Below, piece by piece: positions 16,457-46,698 of a stretch of 64,000 nucleotides of DNA. The translations under genes were made by a program, and so were the position numbers. The stretch lies in contig CALYAW010000005.1 in NCBI GenBank assembly GCA_944393685.1, forward strand, positions 1-64,000, given 5' to 3'. Source of the stretch: an uncultured Alphaproteobacteria bacterium. GTDB lineage: Bacteria; Pseudomonadota; Alphaproteobacteria; RF32; CAG-239. Positions within the stretch are counted from its first letter, which is position 1. Every line of letters begins with the position of its first letter. The notes under the pieces are model-generated. The model searched no databases, had not been told where the DNA came from, and saw only the letters and a list, made by a program, of their open reading frames with translations.

Positions 16457-17215
16457 ATGAAAAAAATATTTTTTATGACGGCTCTTCTCGGAACGGTAGC
16501 AACGACATCTGTATCAGCGCAAAGCTATAATCCGAATTATCCGAGCAATGTGCCAAACAATTATTACAGCTATAATGGAGTGCGTTCGGTTCCTAAGAAA
16601 CCTGCCGATTTCAAGAAATTTAGTATGGGTTTTGATTATGTTCTGGGATCTGCTTCAATCGTAAAAGAAGATTTTACGTTGAACAATCCTTTGCCGGGAG
16701 GAGATCCATATACCGGCAACACGGACAAATTTGAGGACAGCATAGATTCATTGAATGTTAACATAGGTTGGCGTCCGTTCAGATACTTAGGTTTTGAGGC
16801 TTTTTATCAGCATTCGTTGTCAGATAATCAGATCAAATACCAAGAAAGTTATTCAATGGATCCTCGTTTTGCAATGGCAGAATATAATTTGAAATATACG
16901 GCATATGGTTTAGATGCGATTGTATATATTCCCGTATTTTCCAAATTTGATATTTTAGGAACGGTTGGCGTAGCCAATTATGATTTTTCTGCAGATGCAG
17001 ATTTTAGCTCTTATCGTGTGGATTCCAATAATAAAATAAAGGGTAATTCAATCAAATTTGATGAAAGCAAGGTTGGTTGGCGCTATGGAGCTGGAGCTCA
17101 GGTGTGGCTAAGCCAACGCCTAGCATTCCGAGCAATGTATCGTTACAGTTCAATAGGCGGAGATTTTATTGACGATATTTCTGAAGTGGCGCTTGGATTA
17201 AGATACAACTTCTAA
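16457..17215 (+). CDS. Outer-membrane beta-barrel protein, copy 2
   Basis: This 252-residue paralogue of the preceding gene has a signal peptide ending at SVSAQ, a Tyr/Asn/Pro-rich N-terminus, then beta strands with the shared motifs FSMGFDYVLGSAS, FEAFYQHSLSDN, DESKVGWRYGAGAQV and FRAMYRYSSIGGD, ending LGLRYNF. The C-terminal Phe suits recognition by the BAM complex. It follows copy 1 by 21 bases and ends at a terminator, so the two are probably one transcript. Function is unknown; paired barrels of this kind are often immune-exposed surface proteins in host-associated Alphaproteobacteria (general knowledge, not shown here). Confidence 0.75.
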   Translation: MKKIFFMTALLGTVATTSVSAQSYNPNYPSNVPNNYYSYNGVRSVPKKPADFKKFSMGFDYVLGSASIVKEDFTLNNPLPGGDPYTGNTDKFEDSIDSLNVNIGWRPFRYLGFEAFYQHSLSDNQIKYQESYSMDPRFAMAEYNLKYTAYGLDAIVYIPVFSKFDILGTVGVANYDFSADADFSSYRVDSNNKIKGNSIKFDESKVGWRYGAGAQVWLSQRLAFRAMYRYSSIGGDFIDDISEVALGLRYNF

Positions 17216-17223
17216 CTTAAAAG

Positions 17224-17248
17224 CCCTCATCATAAATGAGGGTTTTTT
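17224..17248 (+). terminator. Terminator after the barrel pair
   Basis: CCCTCAT (17224-17230) pairs with ATGAGGG (17236-17242), followed by TTTTTT. Confidence 0.88.
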
Positions 17249-17249
17249 A

Positions 17250-17278
17250 TTGACTTATAAAGCACATCATACTACCCT
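17250..17278 (+). promoter_or_regulatory. Sigma-70-type promoter for the structured RNA
   Basis: TTGACT at 17250-17255, a 17-base spacer and TACCCT at 17273-17278 form a plausible -35/-10 pair. The predicted start of transcription near 17285 falls exactly before the first hairpin of the RNA described next. It begins within the T-tract of the preceding terminator. Confidence 0.5.
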
Positions 17279-17284
17279 TGCAAA

Positions 17285-17555
17285 CAAGATAGGAGTATAT
17301 CCTATCTAGTACCTGTGATAAGGTACGGAGCCGTCAGAAGCTTTTTTAGATCTATCCGGTGCATAGATATAGCATCGTTAATTGGTATAGGTATGATGTT
17401 ATATCTATAATCCGATAATATATCCCCGACTGGTTTTTTGGGTCGGGGAGCTTTGGGTGTATGTCCAGAAGTCTCATCTTTAAAGACCCGAAGGAACATT
17501 AGATAGATCATGCTTTCTGAACTCTCCGACCACCTTTTAACAGGTGGTTTTTTTA
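17285..17555 (+). ncRNA. Candidate structured RNA or leader of about 270 nt
   Basis: This gene-free stretch is packed with complementary segments. Hairpins: AGATAGG/CCTATCT (17287-17307) and GTACC/GGTAC (17309-17326). A long-range closing helix joins CGGAG, TCAGAA, GC and GATCTATC (17326-17356) to GATAGATC, GC, TTCTGA and CTCCG (17502-17528). Inside it are a 14-bp hairpin (17363-17376 with 17395-17408, one G-U), CCCCGAC/GTCGGGG (17424-17448), and a 7-bp helix 17452-17458 with 17486-17492. It has its own promoter and ends in a terminator 25 bases before the epimerase start. It may be an independent small RNA or an attenuating leader of the glycan cassette. Hallmarks of RNase P RNA, tmRNA, SRP RNA and cobalamin riboswitches are absent; 6S RNA is not excluded. 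Confidence 0.6.
17529..17554 (+). terminator. Terminator closing the structured RNA
   Basis: ACCACCT (17529-17535) pairs with AGGTGGT (17542-17548), followed by seven T. Only about 25 bases separate it from the next start codon, too few for a complete separate promoter after it. Confidence 0.85.
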
Positions 17556-17579
17556 TATTTTCTATTAGTCGGAGAAAAA

Positions 17580-18416
17580 ATGAAAGTACTTGTTACCGGA
17601 GCAGGAGGATATATTGGAAAACATGTTGTTAATGTTTTACGACAGCATCCAATAGAAATCATAGCATGTGATTTATGTAAAAATTTTGAATACCAAAATT
17701 GTTGTTGTATAGGTACGGATATTCTAAAGAATGCAGAAGACAAAGATTTATTTAAGAAGTTGGGTTCACCGGAAGCCGTTATTCATCTTGCATGGCAAGA
17801 CGGATTTAATCACAAAGCCGAATCACACATAAAAAACTTATATAGTCATTATCTTTTTTTGAAGAATATGGCGGAACATGGATGCCGCAACATATCTGTT
17901 TTAGGGACGATGCATGAGGTTGGATATTATGAAGGAGCAATAGATGAGAAGACGCCATGTTTTCCTCTTTCTTATTATGGAATAGCAAAAAATACTTTAA
18001 GACAAATAATGGAAGTCTATTGTGCAGAGCAACAAGTCTCTCTAAAGTGGTTAAGAGCTTTTTACATATTAGGAGATGATGAACGGAGTCATAGCGTATT
18101 TAGTAAAATTATTGAATTTGAAAAAGAAGGAAAAGAGACATTTCCATTTACAAGCGGGCTGAATAAATATGATTTTATAGCTATTGACAAGTTAGGAGAA
18201 TTAATTGTTAAAGCAGCTCTTCAAACGGAAATTAAAGGTATAATAAATGTATGTTCTGGAAAAGCGGTTTCGCTTCGTGATAAGGTAGAAGAATTTATCA
18301 AAGATCACCATTTTAAAATTAGACCACAATACGGAGCCTATCCGTCACGCCCATATGATAGCCCGGCCATATGGGGAGATATCACAAAATTAAATAAAAT
18401 TCTTGCGGAGGAATAG
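17580..18416 (+). CDS. NAD-dependent sugar epimerase/dehydratase (extended SDR)
   Basis: The Rossmann motif TGAGGYIGKHV is at residues 6-16, and the catalytic YxxxK is seen as SYYGIAK. The length of 278 residues is typical of the extended short-chain dehydrogenase family that modifies nucleotide sugars. LRAFYILGDDERSHSVFSKII and FIAIDKLGELIVKAA fit the substrate and cofactor-closing region. ATG 17580 is preceded by CGGAG at 17570-17574. The gene opens a cassette of four tightly packed genes for a surface glycan, placed directly after the structured RNA. The exact sugar cannot be read from the sequence. Confidence 0.85.
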   Translation: MKVLVTGAGGYIGKHVVNVLRQHPIEIIACDLCKNFEYQNCCCIGTDILKNAEDKDLFKKLGSPEAVIHLAWQDGFNHKAESHIKNLYSHYLFLKNMAEHGCRNISVLGTMHEVGYYEGAIDEKTPCFPLSYYGIAKNTLRQIMEVYCAEQQVSLKWLRAFYILGDDERSHSVFSKIIEFEKEGKETFPFTSGLNKYDFIAIDKLGELIVKAALQTEIKGIINVCSGKAVSLRDKVEEFIKDHHFKIRPQYGAYPSRPYDSPAIWGDITKLNKILAEE

Positions 18417-18417
18417 A

Positions 18418-19080
18418 ATGAAGTTATTACAAAAATTCCTTCGATTATTCTATCGCCGAAAATATAAAAACGGATATCTTCATATTCGGTTTCTTTTTTT
18501 CAAGTGGTCATGCAAAAGTAAAAATGAAAAAAAGAAATTATTTGTACCTCGTTTAATTAATATTGGAAAATATACATATTCCAGTAGCGATATCTATATA
18601 GCTTCCCCGCAGACAAGCATAGGTTCATTTTGCAGTATTGGTCCAAGATGTGTGTTAGGGCATGGCGAGCATCCTAAAAATTATTTATCAACCTCTCCAT
18701 ATTTTTATTTTGATGAATTGTCATTCAAAGAAAAGGTAATTCCTTCTCATCCGGAGTACTGGGAGGTTGCCCCGATAATAATAGAAAACGATGTCTGGAT
18801 TGGAGATGGTGTTTTTATAAAAAATGGCGTTTCAATAGGCAATGGAGCAATTATAGGAGCCAGATCTGTAGTAACAAAAGATGTTCCGGCATATGGCATA
18901 GTAGTTGGTTGTCCGGCAAAAATTATCGGATACAGATTTGATGAAGACACCATCAAAAAACTATTGGAGTTAAAGTGGTGGGAACTATCGGATGATGTTC
19001 TTAAAACTCTTCCGTATGATGATATTGAGCAAAGTATTGAAGTCATACAGGCATGGCGTCAAAAACAAAGAAAAGGATAG
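18418..19080 (+). CDS. Hexapeptide-repeat O-acetyltransferase (CatB-like)
   Basis: After a basic N-terminus, the protein shows left-handed beta-helix repeats: TSIGSFCSIGPRCVLGHGEHP, PIIIENDVWIGDGVFIKNG, VSIGNGAIIGARSVVTKDV, and VVGCPAKIIGYRF. The HGEHP His is the likely catalytic residue of the xenobiotic/O-acetyltransferase branch. The protein of 220 residues probably acetylates a sugar of the surface glycan. ATG 18418 follows GGAGGA (18407-18412) and sits one base after the stop of the epimerase gene, so the two are co-translated. Confidence 0.85.
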   Translation: MKLLQKFLRLFYRRKYKNGYLHIRFLFFKWSCKSKNEKKKLFVPRLINIGKYTYSSSDIYIASPQTSIGSFCSIGPRCVLGHGEHPKNYLSTSPYFYFDELSFKEKVIPSHPEYWEVAPIIIENDVWIGDGVFIKNGVSIGNGAIIGARSVVTKDVPAYGIVVGCPAKIIGYRFDEDTIKKLLELKWWELSDDVLKTLPYDDIEQSIEVIQAWRQKQRKG

Positions 19081-19085
19081 AATAA

Positions 19086-20030
19086 ATGCGGCGTCTGTTA
19101 GTGTATTTATTTTTTGATAAAAATGGTATTGTAGATCATTACGTTTCTTATCTATTAAAGTCTTTAAGACCATATTGCTCGGAAATCTGCTTTGTAAGTA
19201 ATGGACAAATATCATTGGGTAAAGATACTGTTTCTGATTATGTTGACACTTTTTTGGAACGAGAGAACATAGGATATGATGTTGGCGGATACAAAGATGC
19301 TCTGAATTACTATGGTTTTGATAAATTAAAAGAATATGATGAGTTAATATTATGTAATTATACTTTTTTTGGTCCTTTTTATCCGCTTCAAAAAATGTTT
19401 GAAGACATGAGTAAGAAGAGTTGTGATTGGTGGGGATTATTTACGTGGTCATTTAAGCAGAATGGCAAAATGTATCCTCATATTCCGTCATTTTGGTGTG
19501 TTTATAGGAAATCATTGCTTAATTCACCTTATTTTCGTCAATATTGGGAAACTCTTCCGTTGATAACTTCTTACCAAATGTCGGTTGCTGAGCACGAACA
19601 ACGCCAAGGCCCTTATTATGAAGAAAGAGGATTTATAGCTGCAACATGGTATGATGAGGCAAGATACAGAGATAAAAACAGTAATTTTTTATGGCCGTTT
19701 TTATCAGCCAAACAGATGATACAAAAAGACAAATTTCCTTTTTTAAAGAGAAGACATTTTTTTATAGAAGAAGGATGCATGCCCTATATTTGTGATGCTT
19801 TATCTATCCTGCAATACTTAAAGCAAAAAGATTTATATCCCGTAAAGTTGATTTATGAGAATATTTACAGAACGCAAAAATTTAGTTTCTCAGTTCTTTT
19901 GAAGCAGAAGATGCTCCGTTTAAAATATTATCTGAAATATAAATTAGGAATTCAAAAGGAGCAATCATTGAGAAAATATATTAGATATTCTGATATTTCC
20001 TTTTTAGTCAAGAATTGGAAGCGACAATGA
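19086..20030 (+). CDS. RgpF-like rhamnan synthesis family protein
   Basis: MRRLLVYLFFDKNGIVDHYV, then YLLKSLRPYCSEICFVSN, ENIGYDVGGYKDAL, YDELILCNYTFFGPFYPL and CDWWGLFTWSF are the typical sequence of the RgpF family (PF05045), found in O-antigen and rhamnan loci and usually treated as glycosyltransferase-related. The C-terminus is basic with helical stretches. It starts 5 bases after the acetyltransferase and its stop overlaps the next start (ATGA). Acceptor and donor are unknown. Confidence 0.85.
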   Translation: MRRLLVYLFFDKNGIVDHYVSYLLKSLRPYCSEICFVSNGQISLGKDTVSDYVDTFLERENIGYDVGGYKDALNYYGFDKLKEYDELILCNYTFFGPFYPLQKMFEDMSKKSCDWWGLFTWSFKQNGKMYPHIPSFWCVYRKSLLNSPYFRQYWETLPLITSYQMSVAEHEQRQGPYYEERGFIAATWYDEARYRDKNSNFLWPFLSAKQMIQKDKFPFLKRRHFFIEEGCMPYICDALSILQYLKQKDLYPVKLIYENIYRTQKFSFSVLLKQKMLRLKYYLKYKLGIQKEQSLRKYIRYSDISFLVKNWKRQ

Positions 20031-20605
20031 TTTACGCTTATATTAAAAATTTTGAAAGAGGAAGCAAAAACGAGGAGGAAATAAATCAGCAATATACTCT
20101 CATCAACGAATATGCGCAAAAAGAAAGGGTAAATATTAAACAATGGCATATCGATGCTTTACCCCAAAAAATTCTAAGTCAAATGCAAGCGGATGATATT
20201 TTGCTCGTAACGGAAATCGCAAACTTAGGAAAATCGTTGCGAGATATCAGAGAACTAATTAATTATTGTATTCTTCATCATCTCAAAATTATTATTATAA
20301 AAGATAATTATATATTTGAGAGCAGTTTAAGCATGCAATTATTGGTTTCTACGCTGGATATGGTTATAAAGTTACATGCAGATATTAAATCTCAGAATAT
20401 GAGGCGTTCACTCAGACAACGTCGCGAAGATGGAAAGCCTTTGGGACGCTTGCCTGGACATTGTAATAAAGAATATAAACTCAGTGGCAAAGAAGACGAG
20501 ATCAAAAAGTTGCTTGAACAAAAAGTACCTAAGACACGGATAGCAAAATATCTTGGCGTAAATCGGATGACGCTTTATGCTTTTCTGCAAAAAATGCAAA
20601 AATAA
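20027..20605 (+). CDS. Serine-recombinase (Mpi/Hin-type) homologue lacking catalytic residues
   Basis: The layout of 192 residues follows small invertases such as Mpi: MIYAYIKN start, DDILLVTEIANLGKSL, KLHADIKSQNMRRSLRQRREDGKPLGR, then a C-terminal helix-turn-helix KTRIAKYLGVNRMTLYAFL. The catalytic serine motif YxRVS is replaced by YIKNF, and the active-site pair R-LG-R is replaced by N-LG-K. The protein should bind DNA but not cut it. It may be a regulator of the glycan cassette derived from a phase-variation invertase (inference). ATG 20027 overlaps the preceding stop; a TTG 12 bases earlier is less likely. No long inverted repeats suited to inversion were found nearby. Confidence 0.8.
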   Translation: MIYAYIKNFERGSKNEEEINQQYTLINEYAQKERVNIKQWHIDALPQKILSQMQADDILLVTEIANLGKSLRDIRELINYCILHHLKIIIIKDNYIFESSLSMQLLVSTLDMVIKLHADIKSQNMRRSLRQRREDGKPLGRLPGHCNKEYKLSGKEDEIKKLLEQKVPKTRIAKYLGVNRMTLYAFLQKMQK

Positions 20606-46623: not shown

Positions 46624-46698
46624 TGGTGCCGCTGGCAAGAATCGGACTTGCGACCCCGTCATTACCAATGACGTGCTCTACCACTGAGCTACAGCGGC
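46624..46698 (-). tRNA. tRNA-Thr(GGT)
   Basis: On the minus strand a 75-base cloverleaf is complete: acceptor GCCGCTG/CAGCGGC, D-arm GCTC/GAGC, anticodon stem CGTCA/TGACG with loop TTGGTAA (anticodon GGT, threonine), T-arm GCAAG/CTTGC with loop TCCGATT, discriminator A and encoded CCA. The T-loop begins TCC rather than the usual TTC. It borders the mobile island. Confidence 0.97.

Follow-up and report, generated by a model that had tools for sequence, protein, structure and literature searches.

A small RNA of Xanthomonas, sRNA-Xcc1, was described as 88 nt long by end mapping and as a band of about 100 nt on a Northern blot (PMC2996969), and homologues were detected as RNAs in Xylella (PMC12189769). 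It is trans-acting according to the title of Chen 2011, as cited in PMC12444791, and is found 5' of symE in integron cassettes (PMC12444791). The Rfam model of this RNA, RF02221, has 87 positions and comprises only the domain enclosed by one helix (P1 in Table 1), leaving out a 5' half that is described below. In Narunsky et al. 2024 (PMC11109978), Alphaproteobacteria are not mentioned in the main text, and a paper on agrobacterial transcription starts (PMC10469942) mentions neither traM nor a riboswitch.

The RNA studied here occupies a gene-free interval between the end of an outer-membrane-protein gene (17215) and the ATG of an epimerase gene (17580) in the window, the whole 64,000-nucleotide stretch of alphaproteobacterial DNA that was analysed. 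It is a real pseudoknotted RNA, probably a regulatory one. Sequence comparison makes it a new branch of an RNA that was already known but mis-described; its class includes sRNA-Xcc1 as a distant branch and the only one catalogued. We take it to be a cis-acting riboswitch-like leader, with a probability of about 60%. Its predicted conserved core, made up of H2 with PK1, H8 with PK3, H6/H7 with their internal loop, and P1, stands just 5' of the start codon, and one strand of the folded core would be able to swap into an inhibitory pairing, for which three kinds of putative inhibitory element are found.

Structure and covariation of the putative leader RNA

The sequence from 17269 to 17556 folds with an energy of -103.7 kcal/mol, compared with -68.8 +/- 4.95 kcal/mol for 200 dinucleotide shuffles (z = -7.05; 0/200 shuffles as low), and a scan of the stretch found two terminator-like sites against 0.2 in shuffles. 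A first-pass annotation, made from the letters of the DNA, had proposed a structured RNA beyond chance here, with two 5' hairpins and a terminator, and all of these were recovered (Table 1). The promoter that it also proposed is unproven, because a consensus scan of the stretch gave nothing above chance. Its closing helix of four paired blocks was correct in that a long-range helix exists there, but the blocks are two conserved pairings, PK1 and PK3; in the computed fold, a GGAG:CUCC pairing lies outside both of them. Likewise, its 14-bp helix is present in the window copy but is not class-wide. This helix, which excludes H3 and PK2, is limited to the window copy and its closest relatives (L008, L025 and L037), and the class has H3 plus the loop pairing at that place.

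Table 1. Positions of the RNA elements of the window copy and of the genes that follow it
Feature	Position	Strand	Basis
H0, local 5' hairpin of the GAUAGGAG/CUCCUAUC type	17288-17306	+	Computed fold; copy-specific, outside the conserved core
H1 hairpin, GUACC..GGUAC	17309-17326	+	Computed fold; letters changed in the order's other copies
H2 hairpin, GGAGC..AGCUU	17327-17343	+	100% of cells paired, 22-copy alignment
PK1 5' strand, UCAGAA in H2 loop	17334-17339	+	4/6 PK1 pairs changed on both sides
PK3 5' strand, GAUCUAUC, partner 17502-17509	17349-17356	+	All 7 counted pairs changed on both sides
H3 hairpin, CGGUGC..GCAUCG	17357-17377	+	2/6 pairs changed on both sides
PK2 5' strand, GAUAU in H3 loop	17366-17370	+	PK2 variation one-sided only
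Alternative 14-bp helix, 17363-17376 with 17395-17408	17363-17408	+	Window copy and nearest relatives
PK2 3' strand, AUAUCC, immediately 5' of H5	17420-17425	+	100% of cells paired, mostly invariant
H5 hairpin, CCCCGAC..GGUCGGGG, alternative partner of P1 5' strand	17424-17448	+	H5 pair counts (see text)
P1 5' strand, GGUCGGGGAG	17441-17450	+	P1 pair counts (see text)
H6, 17451-17458 with 17486-17493	17451-17493	+	5/8 pairs changed on both sides
Conserved internal loop GUAUGUCCA/UAAAG, flanked by H6 and H7	17459-17467 (GUAUGUCCA)	+	Loop conservation
H7	17469-17480	+	3/3 pairs changed on both sides
H8 hairpin, loop with PK3 3' strand	17495-17515	+	98.9% of cells paired
PK3 3' strand, GAUAGAUC in H8 loop	17502-17509	+	Pairs with 17349-17356
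PK1 3' strand, UUCUGA	17515-17520	+	Pairs with 17334-17339; copy-specific match, covariation
P1 3' strand, CUCUCCGACC, common to terminator base	17522-17531	+	P1 pair counts; terminator overlap
Intrinsic terminator, ACCACCU..AGGUGGU (17529-17548) plus U-run	17529-17555	+	Scan; three bases overlap P1 3' strand
GUCGGAGA, 5' of start codon, includes Shine-Dalgarno-like GGAGA	17568-17575	+	Sequence
NAD-dependent epimerase, first gene 3' of the window RNA	17580-18416	+	Pfam
Hexapeptide acyltransferase	18415-19080	+	Pfam
RgpF	19086-20030	+	Pfam
Small resolvase gene (Resolvase + HTH_7), closes the glycan cassette	20027-20605	+	Pfam

Covariation was scored on 22 full-length copies from the window's order, with 49 proposed pairs. 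These pairs are kept in 99.2% of cells, a percentage that is flattered because the structure was read from the same 22 copies; when partners are slid by one column, pairing falls to 42%. Changes on both sides of a pair occur in 149 cells, against 42 +/- 5 in shuffles (0/500 as many), so the compensatory base changes for which the stretch was to be checked are present. Copy-specific complementarity is a better test than the percentage paired. For PK3, the H8 region of a copy matches its own 5' region over 8.2 nt on average and that of other copies over 5.7 nt (own better in 152/158), and the corresponding values for the PK1 strand are 5.8 and 4.5 (own better in 135/158), the non-self controls in both cases being homologous rather than independent, as the copies are mutually related. 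Since H2 and H8 are conserved stems, PK1 and PK3 are loop pairings. They are nested with each other, and both are crossed by P1.

P1 (GGUCGGGGAG:CUCUCCGACC) keeps at least 9 of its 10 pairs in 153 of 165 copies, and its 5' strand can alternatively form H5, with 8 or more of 10 pairs in 161 of 165. Among diverged copies, changes on both sides of P1 are seen in L250 (GGCCGGGAG:CUCCCGGCC), in L251 and L254 (CUCCGGGGG:CCCCCGGAG), and in a short subtype (GGACGGAUGU:ACAUCCGCCC) that occurs about once per genome in the genus. The short subtype lies before lipoprotein or secreted-protein genes (L082, in the window's own genome at C1:300065-300192, L083, L085 and L086), and has an RBS, GGAUGU, with complementarity to ACAUCC in the P1 3' strand of the same copy.

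The internal loop between H6 and H7 is the most conserved unpaired part of the RNA, a conservation partly biased because most copies outside the order were found by a pattern containing the loop. Seven copies (L027, L029, L032, L080, L094, L095 and L099) have a deviant core loop, e.g., AUAAAAUA or AUAUAACA in place of AUGUYCA, and might bind a different ligand. Copies of a free-living type (L107-L186, e.g., L118 and L126) carry an extra 3' hairpin, GCGGGGGCGUACCGC, shortly 5' of the start codon. Its loop is complementary to the H1 loop, GUACGC, and kissing of the two is a possible fourth long-range contact.

Distribution and relation to sRNA-Xcc1

A DNA search found six strong copies in the window's own genome, the window copy included, and also matched 17 further genomes of the genus. 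R1, a covariance model of the 3' core, matched 34 of 35 genomes in the genus and, at E <= 0.01, 139 of 153 genomes and 15 of 17 genera in the order; copies are dispersed within genomes, with up to at least 21 per genome. In one case (L101, G453:C6:523838-524084), two overlapping core matches lie in tandem 5' of one gene. In a sample of the class, R1 at E <= 1e-7 matched 34 of 385 genomes from about 20 families. A pattern scan of named genomes found loci in Rhizobium, Shinella, Methylobacterium, Roseovarius, Sphingobium and a Rickettsia endosymbiont, and outside the phylum in Acidobacteriota, e.g., Granulicella and Terriglobus; 79 of 80 pattern-scan loci were matched by R1 at E < 1e-6. A broader model, R2, matched 27 of 398 genomes in a sample of the phylum, seven of them outside Alphaproteobacteria. 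Moreover, the pattern was found in 18 stretches of viral contigs, those tested being confirmed by covariance model, and two BLAST queries found related DNA, one on 206 plasmid records and the other on 352, most of the plasmids being conjugative. The window copy itself matched two unannotated faecal phage records by BLAST, and one viral-contig copy had no match among named phages.

Rfam 15 gave only chance-level, non-significant matches in the window stretch, where no 6S model, T-box or known riboswitch aptamer was matched. RF02221 had no match at 17200-17620 with E up to 5, its gathering score being 53 bits. The sole above-threshold Rfam match in the window is a tRNA gene (46627-46698, - strand). 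6S RNA, to which the first-pass annotation had given a chance, resembles the window RNA in length and in the long imperfect helix of the computed fold. However, the window RNA is multi-copy in its genome, has a leader position and conserved loop pairings, and lacks a 6S match, so this identity finds no support. The description of the RNA as new needs a narrower wording: it is accurate for the window copy, which has no relevant Rfam match, but not for a class that has sRNA-Xcc1 among its members.

When the most diverged loci were scanned against Rfam at a low threshold, three of them showed sub-threshold RF02221 matches at the corresponding place; RF02221 also scored 32.6 bits (E 5e-4) on the short-subtype copy in the window's own genome. 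Above its cut-off, RF02221 matched 39 of 398 sampled genomes. All 28 RF02221 copies examined keep P1 (9/9) and carry a 5' half that is absent from the model, in which both loop pairings again follow the individual copy (PK1, self 7.7 vs 5.0, own better in 27/28; PK3, 7.2 vs 5.7, own better in 26/28). It is this shared 5' half, together with the weak matches of the diverged copies, that marks the window RNA as a branch of a known RNA. In both branches, a 5' half carries H2 with PK1 and PK3, P1 encloses H6/H7 and H8, and the PK1 3' strand precedes the P1 3' strand. They differ in the core loop, which is GUAUGUCCA/UAAAG in the window and most copies and AAUACAA/GAAUAA-like in sRNA-Xcc1, and in the expression platform, which is a terminator on P1 in the window and an RBS pairing with the H8 loop in sRNA-Xcc1. 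Since RF02221 covers only the P1-enclosed domain, the free 88-nt sRNA-Xcc1 could be a processed piece of a leader.

Position before genes and putative expression platforms

The P1 3' strand is followed by a start codon at a median distance of 62 nt (IQR 57-67) in the order and of 76 nt elsewhere, and the longest frame that follows shares the strand of the RNA in 128 of 155 copies. In the order, the terminator begins inside the P1 3' strand in 66 of 68 copies, compared with 4 of 158 control stretches; outside it, a terminator is present in 34 of 99 copies. RBS complementarity to the P1 3' strand is common in most other Alphaproteobacteria and Acidobacteriota. Outside the order, such complementarity of at least 6 nt was found for 33 of 74 genes, against 7 of 130 other genes at the same loci, and the pairing was better with the gene's own copy than with others in 54 of 70 (p 1.2e-5). 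For example, the leader of traM on the octopine Ti plasmid can pair CUAACCC:GGGUUAG, and that of R. etli p42d CCCCGAU:AUCGGGG. The copy-specific RBS test inside the window's order was not significant, with a small control of 29 genes. In the window, GUCGGAGA is complementary to UCUCCGAC of the P1 3' strand.

In sRNA-Xcc1 copies, the PK3 5' strand recurs in the RBS region, which would allow the H8 loop to pair with the RBS. The mimicry is copy-specific (5.9 nt for self and 4.3 nt for other copies; p 0.0018, n = 14); in a Vibrio phage whose record has an annotated sRNA-Xcc1 immediately 5' of a gene, CAAGGAAA is common to the PK3 5' strand and the RBS. Several RF02221 copies precede phage-antirepressor-like genes, and the gene 3' of the copy in Escherichia phage Rac-SA53 is ant, an antirepressor by annotation.

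The surface-glycan cassette that the first-pass annotation saw after the RNA is present at the window copy, but other copies precede varied accessory genes. By Pfam, those of the order encode glycosyltransferases, RgpF, outer-membrane barrels, acyltransferases, pilin- or autotransporter-like proteins, PD-(D/E)XK nucleases and regulators, and those elsewhere, among others, XRE-type regulators, TraM (5), RovC/DUF2285-type proteins (3) and outer-membrane proteins. Leader copies L164, from a Rickettsia endosymbiont, and L156 are also followed by short resolvase-like frames. On Ti plasmid NC_002377.1, the matching DNA stops 24 nt 5' of traM.

This RNA therefore has the 5' leader position and the conserved, covarying core of a riboswitch, and its platforms, as far as sequence can tell, exclude the folded core. 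The covariation, the fixed same-strand spacing to the start codon and the exclusive terminator or RBS pairing support the riboswitch-like leader suggested at first pass.

A candidate switch and its signal

In the proposed switch, a signal would stabilize the fold, P1 and PK3 would form, the inhibitory pairing would be broken and the gene would be on. Without the signal, H5 would capture the P1 5' strand and the gene would be off. The competition would be for the P1 3' strand between terminator and P1 in the window's order, for the same strand between RBS and P1 in most other Alphaproteobacteria and Acidobacteriota, and for the H8 loop between PK3 and an RBS that mimics its 5' strand in the sRNA-Xcc1 branch. 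At the window, the glycan cassette starting at 17580 would be under this control. The signal is most likely a small molecule, presumably bound at the GUAUGUYCA/UAAAG loop, because the H6/H7 internal loop is the most conserved unpaired part. We infer, more tentatively and at slightly under even odds for the reading as a whole, an orphan riboswitch class with one aptamer, probably for one common metabolite, and three couplings, which phages would use for antirepressor genes and conjugative plasmids for traM and other regulators, and which would also serve integrons and surface cassettes of the host. The diversity of the downstream genes is too wide to indicate one metabolite. For c-di-GMP as the ligand, GGDEF genes occur in 18 of 19 genomes, and a c-di-GMP riboswitch match is absent.

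The same cis-acting switch might instead respond to a protein, tRNA or antisense RNA, which we consider unlikely, though it is the strongest competitor. The lack of a common pathway among the controlled genes would fit such a signal. On the octopine Ti plasmid, the traM leader is directly preceded by a ProQ/FinO-family gene (L246 locus 2572-2904), whose product is a possible RNA-binding partner there. However, ProQ (PF04352) was found neither in the window's own genome nor in 18 relatives; it is therefore no general partner and was rejected as an obligatory one for the window's order; no other gene neighbour recurs in the neighbourhoods examined, and the absent T-box match argues against a tRNA.

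Less probable still is an independent, terminator-ended sRNA acting in trans, with no role on the next gene, as published for sRNA-Xcc1. Such an RNA would account for the mapped and blotted Xanthomonas species and its Xylella counterparts, and for the terminator that ends almost every copy in the order, but not for a next start codon at a fixed short distance on the same strand, for RBS pairings that track the individual copy, or for the lack of a terminator in roughly two in three copies elsewhere. A single-state leader, i.e., a fixed attenuator or thermometer without a specific signal, is rather improbable: terminator and RBS pairings alone could give a low basal level, but PK1, PK3 and the internal loop are conserved at a distance from the platform and the P1 5' strand retains two partners, neither of which a fixed attenuator requires. 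Dispersed copies on plasmids, viral contigs and integrons (PMC12444791) recall a mobile or selfish repeat without a regulatory role, but the single orientation, the fixed start-codon distance, and terminators and RBSs fitted to the core make this very unlikely.

On the favoured reading as a ligand-responsive leader, an RNA that had been known only as a short sRNA acting in trans gains a 5' half, with PK1 and PK3 as its two long-range loop pairings, and a probable role in cis; its class extends far beyond the Rfam family. The leader would place a candidate layer of RNA control on traM of the octopine Ti plasmid and ant of Escherichia phage Rac-SA53, both of them well-studied genes, and with class members before these two, laboratory systems are available for work on function and ligand. 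A single metabolite sensed by all members would be a signal common to phages, plasmids and cells. Like riboswitches with pseudoknotted aptamers, this RNA is a 5' leader in which one conserved core is joined to several expression platforms through exchange of a P1 strand; unlike them, it precedes unusually diverse genes and is often carried by plasmids, viral contigs and integrons.
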